Assembly: GCF_026013965.1 (NCBI RefSeq)
Contig: NZ_CP110341.1
Location: forward strand, 3,534,001 to 3,598,000
DNA from: Brevibacterium sp. JSBI002
Lineage (GTDB): Bacteria > Actinomycetota > Actinomycetes > Actinomycetales > Brevibacteriaceae
Direction: 5' to 3'
Length of the DNA stretch: 64,000 nt
Shown here: positions 3,773 to 32,917 of the stretch, in pieces
Layout of the letters: the number at the start of each line of letters is the position of its first letter
How positions within the stretch are numbered: position 1 is the stretch's first letter
The notes under the pieces: generated by a model
Told to the model about the DNA's origin: nothing
What the model saw: only the letters and a program-made list of their open reading frames with translations
Database searches by the model: none
Made by a program: the position numbers and the translations under genes

Positions 3773-3848
3773 GGGACCATCCTCCACCGAGGCCCCCTCG
3801 ATGTCCATTGCTTTGTGCCGAGACCGGCGTTACGTCGGTCCATGGCCG

Positions 3849-3908
3849 ATTGTTGGGTCGATCCACCGCGGTTTCGGCGTTCAGAACGCCGTGGATCGAC
3901 CCAACAAT
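3849..3908. repeat. Large perfect-stem palindrome (element C)
   Basis: Arms at 3849-3866 and 3891-3908 are perfectly complementary over 18 bp (ATTGTTGGGTCGATCCAC and its complement). A second small hairpin (GGCGTT 3876-3881 with AACGCC 3885-3890) sits inside. It lies between the response-regulator stop and the PBP start. There is no T-tract, so it is not a typical intrinsic terminator. Size and shape match the A and B palindromes elsewhere in the window, but the sequence is unrelated. Confidence 0.75.
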
Positions 3909-17554: not shown

Positions 17555-17722
17555 GCCTCCAACCTAACGGACTCGAACCGTCAACCGAACGGACTCGGAC
17601 TGTGGGACTCACAGTCCGGACGGTTGTGCGGCGTCGACCGAACGGTTACGTATGATGCCAACAACAGCGGACCTCAATCGAATGTCCGCTCAGCATCTGA
17701 GCCAGGATCAAAGGAGAACCAC

Positions 17723-18175
17723 GTGCGCACAATCAACGGCATCGACGAGATCGAATCGCTCATCGGGCAAGGGCTCGGCTCCTCCGAGTGGATGACGATG
17801 GATCAGGACGCCATCAACACCTTTGCCGACGTCACCGGCGACCACCAGTGGATCCACGTCGACGAAGCGCGCGCGGCCGAAGGTCCCTACGGTGCGACGA
17901 TCGTCCACGGATTCTTCACGCTCTCGCTCATCCCGAAGTTCTCCACCGAGGTCTTCACCATCGAGGGCGTGTCGATCCGCGTCAACTATGGACTGAACAA
18001 GGTCCGGTTCCTTCAGCCCGTCGTCGTCGGCTCCCGGCTGCGCGGAACCATCAGCGTCAAAGACGTCATCCGCGGTGACAAGGGCACCCAGGTCATCCTC
18101 GAGCACACGATCGAGATCGACGGCGAGGACCGCCCCGCATGCGTCGCCGAGGTGGTCACCCTCCTCGTCGAGTGA
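17723..18175 (+). CDS. MaoC-like (R)-specific enoyl-CoA hydratase domain protein
   Basis: 150 residues forming one hot-dog-fold MaoC domain. The hydratase signature with catalytic Asp and His is present in F-A-D-V-T-G-D-H-Q-W-I-H-V-D, followed by Y-G-x-x-I-V-H-G-F-F-T-L-S. Members hydrate 2-enoyl-CoA in beta-oxidation or fatty-acid synthesis; the exact acyl substrate is unknown. The start is a GTG with AAGGAGAACC before it. It stands alone between a divergent DUF1990 gene and the A1 palindrome. Confidence 0.88.
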   Translation: MRTINGIDEIESLIGQGLGSSEWMTMDQDAINTFADVTGDHQWIHVDEARAAEGPYGATIVHGFFTLSLIPKFSTEVFTIEGVSIRVNYGLNKVRFLQPVVVGSRLRGTISVKDVIRGDKGTQVILEHTIEIDGEDRPACVAEVVTLLVE

Positions 18176-18227: not shown

Positions 18228-18287
18228 GATAAGTGTGCGCAGATTGCCCATTTCCAGCTCGAAAATGGCAACCTGCGCACACTTATC
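18228..18287. repeat. 60-nt near-perfect palindrome, copy A1
   Basis: The left arm begins GATAAGTGTGCGCAG and the right arm ends with its complement. The arms pair over about 25 bp with one mismatch and one bulge, around an AGCT centre. It lies between two converging genes and differs from copy A2 (19488-19547) at only a few positions. Both copies read in the same direction. Confidence 0.85.
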
Positions 18288-18353
18288 TCTCGCCGAGCGG
18301 CACCGCGGCCGCACCACGAGAAGGCCAGTCGGACGAAATGGCGCGACGCATAC

Positions 18354-19364
18354 TCAGATCAGGCCACCCGCACGCAGGTGGTGAGCGATCAGGCCGCAGA
18401 TCTCCGCCATGTCTGAGTCTTTGGATACTCGGATGACCGTCCACCCTTCGGCCTGGAGAGCTGAGATACGGCGATTGTCCTCGGCGAACTGCGTCGGCGA
18501 GCTGCGATGATGATCGCCTTCGTACTCGATGGCAAGCCTGATCGACGGATAGCCCATGTCCGGGTGAAGCAGCGCGCCGATGAGTGAGCACATGACAGCC
18601 GGATGGACCACAGGTTCAGGCAGTCCTGCGTCGATGAGCCGCAGTCGCAGCTTCGTCTCCGGTGGAGAATCGACATCGTCCCGCACCAGCCCGAGTGCGC
18701 GTTCAACTGTGAGACGTCCTCTCACTCGGCGGCGGGAGGCGATTTCAGCGCGGATTTCGTCGATCGCCGTCAACGGTCCCCCGTGCCATCGGCCGACCGC
18801 GGCGTCCCCGAGCACTACGAGCTGCTCCACGGTCAGCACTCGCGCAAGTTCGATGAAGAGCTGTGCCGCCGAGATGAGCGTCAGGCCGAAGTAGTTCTCC
18901 GACCGCAGCCATTCGTACCGATGGAAGACGACGTTCGTCCGTCGCTTGGTCGGGCCTTTGTCTTCACGAGCCACGTGCACCCGAGTGTCGGCGTTCGACG
19001 GCACCGGCAATCCATACAACTTCGCCGCAGTGACACCGCAAGCAACGACACCAGTGTCGATGCACACCAATCCCGTCAGCTTCACTCGTTCGTCGATCCA
19101 CTCGGCGTCCGCCCAGGTCGGAGCGACAACCCGTGTCGAAGGGTCAGTTTCAATCCACACGCCGTAGCCGAGCTGCTTGTACTTCCGCTCATCGTCCAGC
19201 GCGCGGCGCGTGATTCCCCGCGATACTCCCTGCGCACGCGTGAACGGAATCGCGGCGGTCATGAGCTGACGCGGTTTCTCCGTCCAGGGTCGGACCCGAA
19301 GCTTCCGCAGGTTGGCCGGCTGAGCAGTGGCGAGAGACTGCTGCGCCGGTGCCCGATTGTTCAT
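18354..19364 (-). CDS. DUF559-like (Vsr/restriction-endonuclease-fold) protein
   Basis: 336 residues. The N-terminal two-thirds is an unassigned region that resembles the N-terminal part of many actinobacterial proteins of this group. The C-terminus has the DUF559-type nuclease-fold pattern: S-P-P-E-T-K-L-R near residue 235, I-R-L-A-I-E-Y-E-G-D-H-H-R near 280, then F-x-x-D-x-x-R and G-W-T-V-I-R-V. The E...E-Y-E-G-D pattern could be the catalytic acidic cluster of a PD-(D/E)XK-like enzyme. Activity is unproven. The gene is bracketed by two direct 60-nt palindromes. The ATG lies 6 nt after CATTCT, a weak leaderless match. Confidence 0.7.
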   Translation of the reverse strand: MNNRAPAQQSLATAQPANLRKLRVRPWTEKPRQLMTAAIPFTRAQGVSRGITRRALDDERKYKQLGYGVWIETDPSTRVVAPTWADAEWIDERVKLTGLVCIDTGVVACGVTAAKLYGLPVPSNADTRVHVAREDKGPTKRRTNVVFHRYEWLRSENYFGLTLISAAQLFIELARVLTVEQLVVLGDAAVGRWHGGPLTAIDEIRAEIASRRRVRGRLTVERALGLVRDDVDSPPETKLRLRLIDAGLPEPVVHPAVMCSLIGALLHPDMGYPSIRLAIEYEGDHHRSSPTQFAEDNRRISALQAEGWTVIRVSKDSDMAEICGLIAHHLRAGGLI

Positions 19365-19487
19365 AGGCAGAGAATGCCTCCGCCGCGGCGAAGACGGCCA
19401 GTGGTGATTTCACGCCTGTGGACAGAGCCTGGTTGTCCACAGGCCAACTGCGCGCGAGTCGCCGCGTCCGCGCTGCAGGAAAGCGGA

Positions 19488-19547
19488 GAAAAGTGTGCGC
19501 AGATTGCCCATTTCCAGCTCGCAAATGGCAATCTGCGAACACTTATC
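19488..19547. repeat. 60-nt near-perfect palindrome, copy A2
   Basis: Second copy of element A, same orientation as A1 and 1,260 nt away. Its arms contain AAGTGTGCGCAGATTGCC and a near-complement with one changed base. It lies 123 nt before the nuclease-fold gene and 73 nt after the end of the trehalose-phosphatase fusion. No T-run follows the stem. The rest of the gap 19365-19620 holds nothing else I recognise. Confidence 0.85.
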
Positions 19548-19620: not shown

Positions 19621-22266
19621 TCAGCTCGGGCGGTGGGCGTCGAGCTGTTGGGCGACGCGGATGTAGCCGAGGTGTGAGTACGCCTGTGGGTGGTTGCCCA
19701 GGTGCATCTCGGCGACGGGGTCGTATTCCTCCGACAGCAGTCCGGTGGGCCCGAGCAGATCGTCGACCTGCCGGAACAGATCCCAGGCGTCGTCGATGCG
19801 GCCGACCTTGATGAAGGCTTCGATGAGCCACGTCGTGCAGATATGGAATCCGCCCTCGAGCCCGGGCAGTCCGTCATCATAGCGGTAGCGGAACACCGTC
19901 GGGCCGACTCGCAGCTCGCGTTCGATCGCGTCGACGGTGGACACGAACCGCGGATCGTCGGCGTCGAGCAGTCCCGAGAGCCCGACGAACAGGGCTGCCG
20001 AGTCCAGGTCCGTCTCACCGTAGGCGACGGTGAATGCCCCGACTTCCTCGTTGTAACCATGCGTGAGCACATCGTGGGCGATCTCCTCGCGCAGCTGCCG
20101 CCACGCACCGGGCGGCTCCCGATCGAATCGGTCCGCGATCCGCAGCGCCCGATCGACCGTCACCCAGCACATCACGCGTGTGTACACGTTGTGCTTCGGT
20201 GCGCGCCGGGCCTCCCAGATCCCATGGTCGGCCTCGAACCACCGTTTGCCCACGGCCTCGACCATCTGACAGGTGAGCGTCCAATAATCCTCGGGCAGCT
20301 CGCCGAGGTGGTCGCTGAGTTCGTCGAGGAGCTCCGTGACCGGGCCGAACACATCGAGTTGGACCTGATGTTCGGCTGCGTTGCCGACCCGCACCGGCCG
20401 TGATCCGGCGTATCCGGGCAGGTGGTTGAGCACCGCCTCGGTGGTCAGGGCCGAACCGTCGACGGCGTAGAGCGGATGGAGCTGTTCGGGTGAGACCGTG
20501 CGCTCGAGGATGCCCGACAGCCATGAGAGGAAACCTTCGGCCTCACCGGTGGAACCGAGGGCGAGCAGGGCCCGGACGGTCATCGACCCGTCGCGCAGCC
20601 AGGTGTACCGGTAGTCCCAGTTGCGGACGCCGCCGATGCCCTCGGGCAGGGAGGTGGTGGGAGCCGCGAGAACCCCACCGGTGGGTTCGTGGCACAGGGC
20701 GCGCAGGGTGATCGCCGACCGGATGACCTCTTCACGGTGGTGACCGGGCAGAGTCAGTGACTCGACCCAGTTCGTCCAGAAGTTCAGGGCGCGTTCGCGC
20801 ACATGGTGCTCTCCGCCGGTGGCCATGTATCCGGCGTCGCCCGTGCCCGTCCCGCAGGCGAGGACGAGGACGACGGATCCGCCGGGCTGCTGCGAGGGGA
20901 CGACGGTCGCCTCCGCGGTGTGGGAGTCGCCGTTCTCGACGATGTCGAAGTCGATTCCGGGGGCGTAGAGTTCGATCGGCTCCGCAGTGCCGAGCACCGC
21001 CACACCATCATCGGTCCTGGTCATGCGGGTGGGAACCGTGGCGTAGTCGAGCCTGGGGGCGAAGCGGATGCGGGTCGGGGTGTCGCCGGCGAGCACGCGG
21101 ACGACGATCGTGTCGTCGCTGTGCCCGTCGACGGGAGCGAGGTAGTCGACACAGCTCAGTCCAGCCCACCGGGTCTCGAGCAGGGTCGAGTTCCCGAGGT
21201 ATCGCTGGGTCAGCGGGGCGGCCCCGTTGGCCGGTGCCACGGCGAAGAATCCGGCCGCCTCGGAGCCGAGAATCTCGGAGAACATCGACGCCGAGTGCGG
21301 CAGGGGGTGCGGCATCCAGCAGATGCTGCCGGTGGGGTCGATGAGCGCGGTCGACTGTCCGTTGCCGATGAGGCTGTGCCGCTGGATCGGGGTGGCGCGG
21401 CGGCCGAAGAGCCAGGACTTGCGCAGCTCGAACAGGGCACTGAGGACGGTGGAGACCTCGGCCGGTGAGTCCAGCCGGAAGTCGGCGTGAGTCGGTGCGG
21501 TCTGAGTTCCGACCTTGAGCCCGAGGTCATCGGCGCCGAGGGTTTCGAGAGCGAACTCGTCGGCGGTGTCATCGCCGATGAAGACGACGGCTTCCGCCCC
21601 TGTCTGACTGCGCAGACGGGTCAGCGCGTCGGCCTTCGACGACGGTACGACGGACAGGTCGATGACCTGCTTGCCGCGGGTGGGGTGGATCGGGTGGGCG
21701 TCGGCGAGCTTCTCGACGGCGGCTTCGATCTCCCGCCGGTCGGTCTCGTCGAGTCCGCGCAGGTGCACGGCCGCGCCCGTGGTCTTGTGCTCGATGACGT
21801 CGCGCGGCAGGGCGCGTGTGAGGTCGGCGCGGAAGTCGGCGAGGACCGCCCGCTGCTCTTCGGTGAGCGTGTCGATGGTGAATGTGTCGGTCTCACCGCC
21901 GTGGGACCCGAAGAGGTGGACCTCCCTGGGCAGGCGCGACATCGCCGCGAGGTCGCGCAGGCTGCGACCGGAGATCACGCCCGCCGAGGTGGACGGCAGC
22001 AAGGCGAGCGCGCGCAGTGAATCGACCGAGCTCTCCAAGGGAAAGGCCTGGCTGGGAACGTCGACGATGGGGGCGATCGTCCCGTCGTAGTCGGTGGCCA
22101 CCAGCAGGGAGGGGGAGCGTGAGAGCGCGAAGAGGCGACGGAAGAGGACCGGGTCGAGTGCTCTGCTCGCTTCGGCCAGGTCGCCCAATAGTTCGGAGGA
22201 CCTCACCGAGGCGGCGATGGTGGCCAATCGGGATTCGGTTGCGCTCTCGTGCTCGACAGTGCTCAT
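19621..22266 (-). CDS. otsB: Trehalose-phosphatase (OtsB) - GH15 glycoside hydrolase fusion
   Basis: 881 residues. Residues about 40-270 are a HAD-type trehalose-6-phosphate phosphatase with the nucleophile/acid pair D59-x-D61-G-T and the late G-D-D-T-A-D-E motif. From about residue 285 the protein is a GH15 glucoamylase/trehalase-like domain: G-N-G-Q-S-T-A-L-I-D start, Y-T-W-L-R-D-G in the (alpha/alpha)6 barrel and L-L-S-E-E-Y-D-P, which carries a candidate catalytic glutamate. Actinobacterial GH15 proteins include acid trehalases, so one polypeptide may both make and split trehalose, or trim a related glucan. The start has GAGGTGAG before it. The HdeD-like gene lies 35 nt upstream on the same strand. 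Confidence 0.85.
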   Translation of the reverse strand: MSTVEHESATESRLATIAASVRSSELLGDLAEASRALDPVLFRRLFALSRSPSLLVATDYDGTIAPIVDVPSQAFPLESSVDSLRALALLPSTSAGVISGRSLRDLAAMSRLPREVHLFGSHGGETDTFTIDTLTEEQRAVLADFRADLTRALPRDVIEHKTTGAAVHLRGLDETDRREIEAAVEKLADAHPIHPTRGKQVIDLSVVPSSKADALTRLRSQTGAEAVVFIGDDTADEFALETLGADDLGLKVGTQTAPTHADFRLDSPAEVSTVLSALFELRKSWLFGRRATPIQRHSLIGNGQSTALIDPTGSICWMPHPLPHSASMFSEILGSEAAGFFAVAPANGAAPLTQRYLGNSTLLETRWAGLSCVDYLAPVDGHSDDTIVVRVLAGDTPTRIRFAPRLDYATVPTRMTRTDDGVAVLGTAEPIELYAPGIDFDIVENGDSHTAEATVVPSQQPGGSVVLVLACGTGTGDAGYMATGGEHHVRERALNFWTNWVESLTLPGHHREEVIRSAITLRALCHEPTGGVLAAPTTSLPEGIGGVRNWDYRYTWLRDGSMTVRALLALGSTGEAEGFLSWLSGILERTVSPEQLHPLYAVDGSALTTEAVLNHLPGYAGSRPVRVGNAAEHQVQLDVFGPVTELLDELSDHLGELPEDYWTLTCQMVEAVGKRWFEADHGIWEARRAPKHNVYTRVMCWVTVDRALRIADRFDREPPGAWRQLREEIAHDVLTHGYNEEVGAFTVAYGETDLDSAALFVGLSGLLDADDPRFVSTVDAIERELRVGPTVFRYRYDDGLPGLEGGFHICTTWLIEAFIKVGRIDDAWDLFRQVDDLLGPTGLLSEEYDPVAEMHLGNHPQAYSHLGYIRVAQQLDAHRPS

Positions 22267-29261: not shown

Positions 29262-29292
29262 ACCGCCTCGGGCCCCTCAAACTCCCTATTTG

Positions 29293-29348
29293 CTACCTGA
29301 CGGCGGCCCAGCAACCTGGCGCGAGGTTGCTGGGCCGCCGTCGGGTAG
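29293..29348. repeat. 56-nt palindrome, copy B1
   Basis: Two 25-bp arms, the left beginning CTACCTGACGGCGG, pair with one mismatch around a 6-nt centre. It lies between recQ and kynureninase. It is the most symmetrical of three related copies (see 30730 and 31587). There is no T-run on either side. Confidence 0.85.
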
Positions 29349-29412
29349 TTCTGAGGCGGTAGCCTGGAATGCAGACGAACCCACCGGTTCCCTCACCACG
29401 TGGAAGGCGACG

Positions 29413-30726
29413 ATGACGACCCCTGACCGGACAGCCACCTCGGCGAACTCAACTGGCTCCCCGAGTTCAATCACCCGCGCGGACTGCAAACAACGCGATG
29501 CGAACGATCCTCTGCGTGATTGCCGCGAGGAGTTCCTGCTCCCGGAAGGCACGATCTATCTCGACGGGAACTCTCTCGGCCCGCGCACAAAGGGAGCCGC
29601 AGAACGCGCCCAGGAAGTCATCACCGACGAATGGGGCACCGGCCTCATCGGGTCATGGAACACCGCCGGCTGGTGGGATCTGCCGGCAAAGCTGGGTGAG
29701 AAGGTCGCCGGGCTCGTCGGCGGCGGGGCCGGGTCGACCGTCGTCACGGACACGACGTCGATCAATCTGTTCAAGGCCGCCTCGGCGGCGCTGAAGATGC
29801 AGGCCGAGGACTCCTCGGACCGGCGGGTCATCCTCACCCAGCGGGAGAACTTTCCCTCCGATATCTACATGCTCGAAGGATTGGCCGAGCAGCTCGGCGA
29901 CGGATACGAGGTCCGCCTCGTCGACGATGAGGAAGTCACCGCAGGGTTCCCGACCACGATGTCCGACGAGGTGGCCCTCGTCGTCCTCACCCATGTGAAC
30001 TACCGGACCGGTCGGCTCTTCGATATGGGCACGACCACCTCGGCGATCCATTCCGGCGGAGCCATGGTCATCTGGGACCTGTGCCATTCGGCCGGTGCTC
30101 TGCCCATCGATCTGGCCGGAACCGGGGCGGACATGGCGATCGGCTGCACGTACAAGTTCCTCAACGGCGGACCCGGGTCTCCCGCATTCATCTGGGTCGC
30201 CGAGGCGCTGCAGAACCGATTCAGCCAACCTCTGTCGGGGTGGTGGTCGCATGCGCAGCCCTTCGATATGGCCCCGGACTACCGGCCGGCCGACGGTATC
30301 CGCCGCTACCTCACCGGAACGCAGGGAATCCTGTCGATGTCCGTGGCAGAGCTCGGCCTCGACATCCACTCGCGGGTGGATATGGAACAGGTCCGGGAGA
30401 AGTCCCTGGCCTTGTCGGACCTGTTCATCGACCTCGTCGATGAGCGTTTGGCCGATCATCCGGTCGAGGTCGTCACCCCACGTGAGCACGCCCATCGCGG
30501 GTCTCAGGTCTCGATCCGGCATCCGGAGGGGTTTGCGGTGATGAGCGCGCTCATCGAACGCGGAATCATCGGCGACTACCGTGAGCCGGAGGTGCTGCGC
30601 TTCGGTCTGACTCCGCTCTACATCGGGTTCACCGAGGTGTGGAACACCGTCGAGGCCCTGCGCGACATCCTCGACAACCGACTTTGGGACACCCCGGCGC
30701 ACAAGGTCCGCGGCGCCGTCACCTAA
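29413..30726 (+). CDS. kynU: Kynureninase
   Basis: 437 residues, a fold-type I PLP enzyme that splits kynurenine to anthranilate and alanine in tryptophan breakdown. Seen here: Y-L-D-G-N-S-L-G-P near the start, F-P-S-D-I-Y, W-D-L-C-H-S-A-G-A, the PLP lysine K248 in Y-K-F-L-N-G-G-P-G-S and W-W-S-H. GGAAGG lies before the ATG at 29413; upstream in-frame sequence runs through the B1 palindrome and is rejected. No other kyn gene is in the window. It lies between palindromes B1 and B2. Confidence 0.93.
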   Translation: MTTPDRTATSANSTGSPSSITRADCKQRDANDPLRDCREEFLLPEGTIYLDGNSLGPRTKGAAERAQEVITDEWGTGLIGSWNTAGWWDLPAKLGEKVAGLVGGGAGSTVVTDTTSINLFKAASAALKMQAEDSSDRRVILTQRENFPSDIYMLEGLAEQLGDGYEVRLVDDEEVTAGFPTTMSDEVALVVLTHVNYRTGRLFDMGTTTSAIHSGGAMVIWDLCHSAGALPIDLAGTGADMAIGCTYKFLNGGPGSPAFIWVAEALQNRFSQPLSGWWSHAQPFDMAPDYRPADGIRRYLTGTQGILSMSVAELGLDIHSRVDMEQVREKSLALSDLFIDLVDERLADHPVEVVTPREHAHRGSQVSIRHPEGFAVMSALIERGIIGDYREPEVLRFGLTPLYIGFTEVWNTVEALRDILDNRLWDTPAHKVRGAVT

Positions 30727-30729
30727 CTG

Positions 30730-30784
30730 CTACCTGACGGCGGCGCAGCAACCTGGCGCCAGGTGTCTGGGCCGCCGTCACCTG
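30730..30784. repeat. 55-nt palindrome, copy B2
   Basis: Begins CTACCTGACGGCGGCGCAG just after the kynureninase stop and ends 17 nt before the MOSC gene stop codon. Its two arms are less symmetrical than in B1. The asymmetries (GCGCAG in one arm, CACCTG at the end) are shared with B3. Confidence 0.85.
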
Positions 30785-30801
30785 CGTTGGGACGTGACCG
30801 C

Positions 30802-31586: not shown

Positions 31587-31641
31587 CAGGTGACGGCGGC
31601 CCAGATACCTGGCGCCAGGTTGCTGCGCCCCCGTCAGGTAG
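31587..31641. repeat. 55-nt palindrome, copy B3 (inverted relative to B2)
   Basis: Read on the minus strand it starts CTACCTGACGGGGGCGCAG and follows B2 almost base for base, so B2 and B3 are inverted around the MOSC gene. Its outer end overlaps the last codons and the TGA stop of the MFS gene at 31634. Confidence 0.85.
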
Positions 31642-32917
31642 TAATTGGGGCATGTGGGTTGCGCCTTCCTGTGATGGCGTAGGTGCCGATGGCCACCGCT
31701 CCGATGGCCAGGACCGTGCCGCCGATGATAACGGCTCCGGGAATTGTGGCGATCGTGCCGAGCACTCCCACGGTGACTCCGGAGAAGGTCTGCATCCCCG
31801 GCCCGAATGTCGCATAGGAGCCGATGACGCGGCCGCGGATCTCCGGCGGCGCTTCGAGTTGGATGATCGCCATCCCGGTCGACTCGGCGGTGATCTTCGA
31901 GACTCCGGCGATGACGAGCATGATGACGGCCAGCCACAGGTGCGAGGTCAGGGCGAAGAACAGAGAGCTGATGCCCATCGCCGCGGCGGCCAGTGCCGCG
32001 GCAGCCGGAACGGCCTTGATCCACCCGGTCGCCTCAAGCCCGAAGCCCCCGAGCACCCCTCCTGCACCCATGGCGAAGAGCAGCACGCCATAGGTGAAGT
32101 CACTGTCCCCGCCGACCGGATTGAGGATGTCGCCGAACACCGGCATCGCCGTCTGCAGCACCGCCCCGATCGTCGTCGAGGCGAGCGCGGCCAGCAGCAG
32201 CATGCCGACGATCGCGCGATTGTGGCGGACGTCGATGAGCACCCGCAGCGACTGGATGAGAGTCGTCCGCGCGGTGCGCACTCCTCCGCTGCGCAGATGC
32301 CCGGTGAAGGGGGTGCGGATGAGGAAGATCGTCAGCGGCAGATAGAAGACGATGTTGATGAAGATGCCCCACGTGGCACCGACCCCGAGCAGCAGAGCGG
32401 AACCGACGACGGGACCGAAGAGGATGCCGAGGCTGCGGAACGTCGCATTGAGCCGGACAGCGCTCGGCAGCTCCTTCCGATCGACGAAGTCATGGAGCAT
32501 CATCTGTTCGGCCGGACCCCACAGACATCCGGCCAGGCCATGGATGACGAGCAGCACGCAGGCCTGCCACAACTGCAGAGAGTCCGTGAGGAAGAGGATC
32601 CCCCAACACAGGGACACGACCATGAACATGATCTGTCCGATCTGGATGAGGCGGCGGCAGTCGAAGCGTTCGGCCAGAGACCCGGCATAGACGGACAGGA
32701 GCAGGAAGGGCAGCCAGTGGCTGATGAGCTGGAATCCGACGAGCGCCGGGGATTCGAACTTCTGCCACAGCACCCAATAGGTGATGACGTGCTCGATATT
32801 GTCGCCCATCATCGCCGTGCCCGATCCGATCAGATAGGGCGCAGTCTTCCAACTGCGAAGCACGCTGAAACGGCGCGGACCGGCGGCACCGCCGTTGTCC
32901 TCGGAGAAATCGCTCAC
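31634..32917 (-). CDS. MFS exporter, DHA3/MFS_3-like
   Basis: 427 residues, 12 predicted helices, with L-A-E-R-F-D-C-R-R between helices 2 and 3. It resembles MFS_3 (enterobactin-exporter-like) proteins. The last three codons and stop are provided by palindrome B3, suggesting the element landed at the gene end. The start is GTG with GAGAAT 6 nt upstream. Divergent from the isochorismatase-like gene. Confidence 0.82.
   Translation of the reverse strand: MSDFSEDNGGAAGPRRFSVLRSWKTAPYLIGSGTAMMGDNIEHVITYWVLWQKFESPALVGFQLISHWLPFLLLSVYAGSLAERFDCRRLIQIGQIMFMVVSLCWGILFLTDSLQLWQACVLLVIHGLAGCLWGPAEQMMLHDFVDRKELPSAVRLNATFRSLGILFGPVVGSALLLGVGATWGIFINIVFYLPLTIFLIRTPFTGHLRSGGVRTARTTLIQSLRVLIDVRHNRAIVGMLLLAALASTTIGAVLQTAMPVFGDILNPVGGDSDFTYGVLLFAMGAGGVLGGFGLEATGWIKAVPAAAALAAAAMGISSLFFALTSHLWLAVIMLVIAGVSKITAESTGMAIIQLEAPPEIRGRVIGSYATFGPGMQTFSGVTVGVLGTIATIPGAVIIGGTVLAIGAVAIGTYAITGRRNPHAPITT

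Follow-up and report, generated by a model that had tools for sequence, protein, structure and literature searches.

Nuclease-like genes of Brevibacterium bracketed by private, dispersed palindromes: candidates for a selfish cassette

Why should a gene for a nuclease-like protein lie between two almost identical palindromes of 60 nt? The question is raised by a 64,000-nt stretch of the 3.74-Mb genome of Brevibacterium sp. JSBI002, analysed here as a whole and called the window, in which a gene for a 336-aa protein has one such palindrome (A1) past its 3' end and another (A2) upstream of its start (Table 1). Each palindrome is imperfect, and the two are identical at 56 of 60 positions; A1 lies 66 nt from the stop codon of the gene and A2 lies 123 nt from its start. 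Folded as single-stranded DNA, they reach -20 to -26 kcal/mol, with z scores of -7.1 to -9.6 relative to shuffled sequences. By eye, neither A1 nor A2 is followed by a T-run, whichever strand is read, and the preliminary description of this DNA, which reported near-identical palindromes on both sides of the gene and an absence of T-tracts, was thus accurate in both respects. Its further statement that the palindromes point in the same direction holds for the window and for a second genome (G027), whereas the pair in G044 is matched better as inverted repeats (89% versus 75%), as is, slightly, the pair in G041 (78% versus 75%).

Table 1. Features of the cassette and of the genes next to it, in positions of the window
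Feature	Position	Strand	Remark
Whole cassette: A1, nuclease gene and A2	18228..19547	.	Site versions compared in 30 species
Palindrome A1, past the 3' end of the gene	18228..18287	.	One of 8 places of the A type in the genome
Gene for the 336-aa protein (AbiEi-like part and Vsr/EDxHD-like nuclease part)	18354..19364	minus	
Vsr/EDxHD-like nuclease part (predicted)	18360..18668	minus	Residues 233-335
AbiEi-antitoxin-like part, N-terminal winged helix (predicted)	18681..19259	minus	Residues 36-228
Palindrome A2, upstream of the gene start	19488..19547	.	
MaoC-like dehydratase gene	17723..18175	plus	Outside the cassette; site marker and anchor
Trehalose-phosphatase/GH15 gene	19621..22266	minus	Outside the cassette; site marker and anchor

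For each gene considered, the 400 nt upstream were compared with the 400 nt downstream, and the best match gave a shared-flank score, with 33 or more taken as a pass. The window locus scores 105, whereas 220 control genes (taken from the window and, in 13 genomes, from 20 stretches that measure 20 kb each) have a median score of 22, with the 99th percentile at 32.4, so that the pairing of A1 with A2 is not a matter of chance. We then extended the comparison to 57 Brevibacterium genomes and found homologs of the protein (E 1e-10) in 55 of them, at 140 places in total. The score was at least 33 at 99 of the 140 loci, and in 91 of these 99 the shared repeat was self-complementary; in a first batch, which included one more distant paralog, 88 of 114 loci passed. 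Only 3 of the 220 control genes did so, and the top 2 of these were window genes flanked by another palindrome of the same system, while flanks swapped among different loci gave 73 passes in 3000. Palindromes as such were present upstream of 62 and downstream of 73 of 139 genes, compared with 9 of 400 random segments, which were not limited to intergenic DNA. The 4 other paralogs in the window genome each have a palindrome of their own, different in sequence, which is clear on both sides for 2 of them and, for the remaining 2, less strong on one of the sides. These observations confirm that the palindrome-gene-palindrome arrangement is real and general, and they bear out the earlier suggestion that palindrome and gene form a unit.

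The best folds for the predicted structure of the 336-aa protein were those of AbiEi, of the homing endonuclease I-Bth0305I and of Vsr-like proteins. Residues S233, E236, D269, E280, H286, D296 and R299 were invariant across 58 sequences, and we presume that they have roles in the nuclease; the ratio of nonsynonymous to synonymous changes (dN/dS) for the gene was 0.15-0.18 relative to four orthologs. The gene was first described as DUF559-like: Pfam did return a DUF559 match (19.1 bits, gathering score 20.6) and one to REase_MTES_1575 (26.2 bits, gathering score 38.2), the C-terminal match falling within residues 274-321, but these were its only matches and both lie under the curated cut-offs. 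DUF559-like genes are without known role in the Pfam description. Pfam detected no transposase domain in the window protein, PADLOC gave no convincing match, and all Rfam matches were far under their gathering scores. A search of plasmids for homologs gave 5 records, all less than 35% identical, and a search of phages gave a single unannotated metagenomic record at 29% identity.

Each protein subfamily has its own palindrome. Among 88 loci, the palindrome was common to 88% of 144 locus pairs with proteins at least 70% identical, to 17% of 81 pairs at 60-70%, to 3% of 80 pairs at 55-60% and to 0.00 (rounded) of 3523 pairs below 55%; in this matrix, as in the pair counts and the copy-number comparison given later, the species are related and the events are not independent of each other. 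In a second, more distant branch of the family, 40 of 50 loci (30 taken best-first and 20 chosen by hand) scored at least 33, a few of the repeats being non-palindromic. Across the order, 133 of 198 genomes contained homologs, including 15 that belong to Brevibacterium, as did 49 of 72 genera. In other genera of the order, 13 of 15 loci passed the threshold set for Brevibacterium, a few with repeats that were tandem and not palindromic. When 13 named loci from outside Brevibacterium were scored, 8 passed (in Arthrobacter, Paenarthrobacter, Microbacterium, Actinomadura and one metagenome-assembled genome), and both Curtobacterium loci and three Arthrobacter loci failed; these sets of 15 and 13 loci may overlap. 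The named loci closest to the window protein were all from Brevibacterium. At another distant paralog, L423 (G000, at ~930 kb), repeats with GCCGAGAAACGGGCTGA stand on both sides and are apparently not palindromic.

This distribution bears on whether the nuclease genes are merely passengers, caught between palindromes like the repetitive extragenic palindromes (REPs) or the miniature inverted-repeat transposable elements (MITEs) and spread by another enzyme, for example a REP-associated tyrosine transposase (RAYT) encoded elsewhere in the genome. The palindrome of the most distant paralog of the window genome, which we call the third type, starts with CTAC and ends with GTAG, with the GTAG end on both strands, and resembles in this the GTAG-tagged REPs described in PMC3733652. 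The A-type palindrome starts with GATAAG or GTTAAG and carries no GTAG or CGTC tag. Passenger genes would be expected to differ from case to case, however, and here many unlinked subfamilies of one protein family, in other genera as well, each lie between a palindrome of their own. We consider the passenger explanation improbable.

The palindromes are not confined to the flanks of the genes. The A palindrome occurs at 8 places in the window genome (15 two-strand matches) and in 13 of the 57 Brevibacterium genomes, that of a second paralog at 20 places in the window genome, and the third type at no fewer than 40, with copies 95-100% identical (40 of 82 candidates were scored). An exact, idealised palindrome pattern gave no match in named genomes. 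For each of the 3 types, 2 copies bracket the cognate gene and the rest (6 of 8, 18 of 20 and 38 of 40) lie away from it. The 20 third-type copies read by eye are intergenic, and many of them lie shortly past a stop codon. The earlier description had held that palindromes at terminator positions, unrelated to nuclease genes, would speak against a link between the two; most copies do lie away from the gene and many of those read follow stops, but the 2 copies that bracket each cognate gene do not fit such a picture.

Three third-type copies (CTACCTGACGGCGGCCCAGCAACCT...) are in the window itself, at 29291-29351, 30727-30785 and 31589-31643, the last 2 being degenerate and the first, at 29293, counting among the 40 places given above; the paralog that this type brackets is at ~797 kb. 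The genes flanked by the three copies are that at 29413-30726, which we take to be a kynureninase gene, and the next one. The copy downstream of 29413-30726 was present in 15 of 30 species, and shifted in one of them; the copy upstream was considered as an empty-site case, being present in some species and absent from others, but the left flank there is rearranged, so that it offers no clean empty site. A copy of the second paralog's palindrome (GATTGTTGGGTCGATCCACGG...) lies at window 3847-3908 and is 90% identical to the one adjacent to the gene. At L352-L371 in G000, several CTACCTGACGG palindromes are seen by eye within short C-rich/G-rich inverted flanks (CCCCAAT...ATTGGGG), shortly after stops; these flanks may reflect a target preference.

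An explanation without any movement is that the palindromes are operators and terminators of an autoregulated gene, the AbiEi-like part binding inverted repeats on either side of the gene to control its expression and the nuclease doing something else, such as defence. Proteins of the AbiEi family are described in PMC7319586 as repressing their own promoters by way of paired 23-bp inverted repeats, and at the median the repeats at our loci end 164 nt upstream of the start codon and begin 41 nt past the stop. Yet one of the 2 matched repeats lies past the 3' end, where no operator is needed, all but 2 of the places counted above for each type are away from the gene, and the site of the window cassette exists also in versions with a lone palindrome. 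On this evidence an arrangement of operators is an unlikely, though not a negligible, explanation.

We used the MaoC-like and GH15 genes as anchors to compare the site of the window cassette in 30 species. Ten species have a bracketed gene, which is of the A type in 6 and of an unrelated B type in 4. Another 6 have a lone palindrome (2 with A, 3 with C and 1 with D), and the remaining 14 have neither gene nor palindrome, a weaker and different sort of hairpin being present in some of these. The comparison of empty sites that had been proposed thus yields present, absent and one-palindrome versions of the same site, although it does not separate gain from loss. On a tree of the flanking DNA, at least 12 changes of state are needed; the row for G041 is long and half-filled, and its placement is unsure. 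Sister species with full support differ in state (G044 with the A gene and G019 with a lone A; G024 with the A gene and G003 with a lone C), as do, with moderate support, G053 with the A gene and G032 with nothing. Also, unrelated palindrome types occupy the same site in neighbouring species: a B gene stands beside the A-gene/lone-A pair, and an A gene has a lone C as its neighbour. In G019, the lone site consists of the outer left flank of G044, one palindrome and the outer right flank, with the switch inside the palindrome. G036 and G027 give the same join through one palindrome, the left match there extending only ~18 nt before the flanks diverge. Both joins fit either deletion between 2 palindromes or insertion into a lone one. 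Hairpins with GACACTCGACCCGTTTCTC occur at this site in several species that lack the cassette.

Such joins invite the explanation that the gene is an ordinary, inherited one, lost from time to time by recombination between its flanking repeats, so that presence and absence reflect loss throughout and nothing spreads. A deletion of this kind would produce lone sites like those seen, and among 307 locus pairs whose proteins are 60% identical or more, 248 have their surroundings in common. On the other side, score thresholds assign different surroundings to 54 of these pairs (no fewer than 5 of them borderline), unrelated palindrome types share one site in neighbouring species as just described, and the third-type copies within one genome are both numerous and nearly identical. 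Loss alone is, in our opinion, an improbable account of the whole.

We lean instead, with modest confidence, towards the view that the cassette is, or once was, selfish: its nuclease would act on the cognate palindrome, and repair would place copies of the cassette in lone palindromes; both the action of the protein on the palindromes and the copying by repair are inferred. The predicted AbiEi-type DNA-binding part and Vsr/EDxHD-type nuclease part would together probably recognise the flanking palindromes. Possibly, 2 monomers sit on the two ~22-bp arms, so that their nuclease parts come to lie over the middle of the 60-bp site. A lone palindrome that was cut or nicked there would then be repaired from a palindrome-gene-palindrome copy, the outer half-palindromes of which match the 2 broken ends. 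Recombination between the 2 palindromes of a cassette would leave a single palindrome, and lone copies might spread in the manner of REP repeats and outlive the gene.

A pattern search found 28 A-type copies, 25 of them with a centre of 36 nt, and these 25, from 11 genomes, align without gaps over 64 columns; the alignment leaves out 4 of 29 copies, one missed by the pattern and three with centres of 29, 38 or 39 nt. By eye, most aligned copies have one arm longer by one base, at the same place. The arms pair in 87.6% of cells, with changes on both sides in 12 of 29 pairs, and pairing falls to 27-42% if the partner is shifted by 1-3 columns. Matched arms are expected alike from a hairpin and from a protein dimer on duplex DNA, so the pairing does not decide between these.

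Copy number is related to the protein for the third type, at least in a first look at the 57 genomes. The 15 genomes with a third-type protein at 84% identity or more held 42-100 third-type candidates, the 4 with a protein at 62-64% held 13-42, and the remaining 38 held at most 11, except for one with 81; since the genomes are related, these are not 57 independent trials.

Several observations weigh against the cassette proposal. The exceptional genome, G014 (70 contigs), holds its 81 candidates and no close protein, which suggests that palindromes outlive the gene, and G036 has 13 two-strand A-type matches and no homolog at E 1e-10. For the A type as a whole, the matches number 15, 10, 10, 2, 1 and 1 in genomes with the A gene and 13, 13, 9, 6, 3, 3 and 2 in those without it, which is no relation. 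A shared flank repeat was not found at 41 of the 140 genes, among them cases with a palindrome on one side only or with unlike palindromes on the 2 sides. The dispersed site L355, sought as an empty site, proved instead to hold a conserved, old palindrome, which 14 of the 18 species that could be read have retained, with a degenerate copy in 2 others and none in the last 2. The common surroundings of most locus pairs imply that movement is rare, and, each species being represented by a single genome, gain cannot be distinguished from loss at the MaoC-GH15 site. Also, a donor would keep 2 intact sites, which a simple double-strand homing enzyme would cut, and the copy beside the third-type gene is identical at 62 of 62 positions to three lone copies. 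The difficulty of the 2 intact sites would be eased by a nicking or single-strand activity, or by tight control through the AbiEi-like part.

It is an even question, in our judgement, whether these genes represent a new class of selfish element, in which AbiEi-Vsr nucleases home into their own dispersed 60-bp palindromes, each private palindrome co-diverges with its protein, the class is widespread in an actinobacterial order, and a restriction-type nuclease takes the role that a tyrosine transposase has in the RAYT/REP system. Among the papers listed by searches that were partly on neighbouring topics, titles and abstract openings contained no description of nuclease genes bracketed by palindromes, although this is not proof of absence. 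Palindromes of the REP kind for which no enzyme has been identified have long been a puzzle. If the proposal is correct, a single kind of element could account for many palindromes and nuclease genes of Actinobacteria that now stand as orphans, and the many private protein/site pairs within one genus would be a ready set for learning how a protein reads a long palindromic site.

One further repeat lies near the cassette: a 22-nt unit (CAACCTAACGGACTCGAACCGT) at window 17560-17603, head-to-tail just 5' of the MaoC-like gene and in 2 to 3 copies in relatives, which is perhaps an operator.

The cassette resembles several known systems in part. With regard to insertion sequences and MITEs, the window gene has no transposase domain, and no target-site duplication was seen by eye around the 20 third-type copies read. 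The protein has a C-terminal match to DUF559 and REase_MTES_1575, under the cut-offs, and those Pfam entries, as returned, make no mention of flanking palindromes. In the predicted structure, residues 36-228 have the fold of the AbiEi antitoxin and of Rv2827c, and AbiEi is known to bind paired inverted repeats (PMC7319586). In contrast to the AbiE type IV toxin-antitoxin system, however, no AbiEii toxin adjoins the gene, whose neighbours are the MaoC-like and trehalose-phosphatase/GH15 genes, the AbiEi-like part is fused to a nuclease, and the repeats stand on both sides of the gene and are dispersed. The catalytic part has the fold of the EDxHD homing endonuclease I-Bth0305I, and the length of our palindromes recalls the dimeric target of nearly 60 bp given for that enzyme in PMC3943268. 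Unlike I-Bth0305I, the gene is not in an intron, an intein or a split gene, and the putative site, supposing that it is the palindrome, remains whole on either side of the gene and is not interrupted. The closest likeness in layout is to the REP/RAYT system (REPtron), which likewise combines a gene between palindromes of its own with a number of private pairs and with dispersed lone copies; the one-base asymmetry of the arms in one of our types (by eye) and the nearly perfect symmetry of another recall the two groups of REPs set out in PMC8266576. The enzyme, by Pfam and by predicted fold, is AbiEi-like and Vsr-like and not an HUH/Y1 tyrosine transposase, and for this reason we do not file the cassette as a REPtron, although it has the layout of one.
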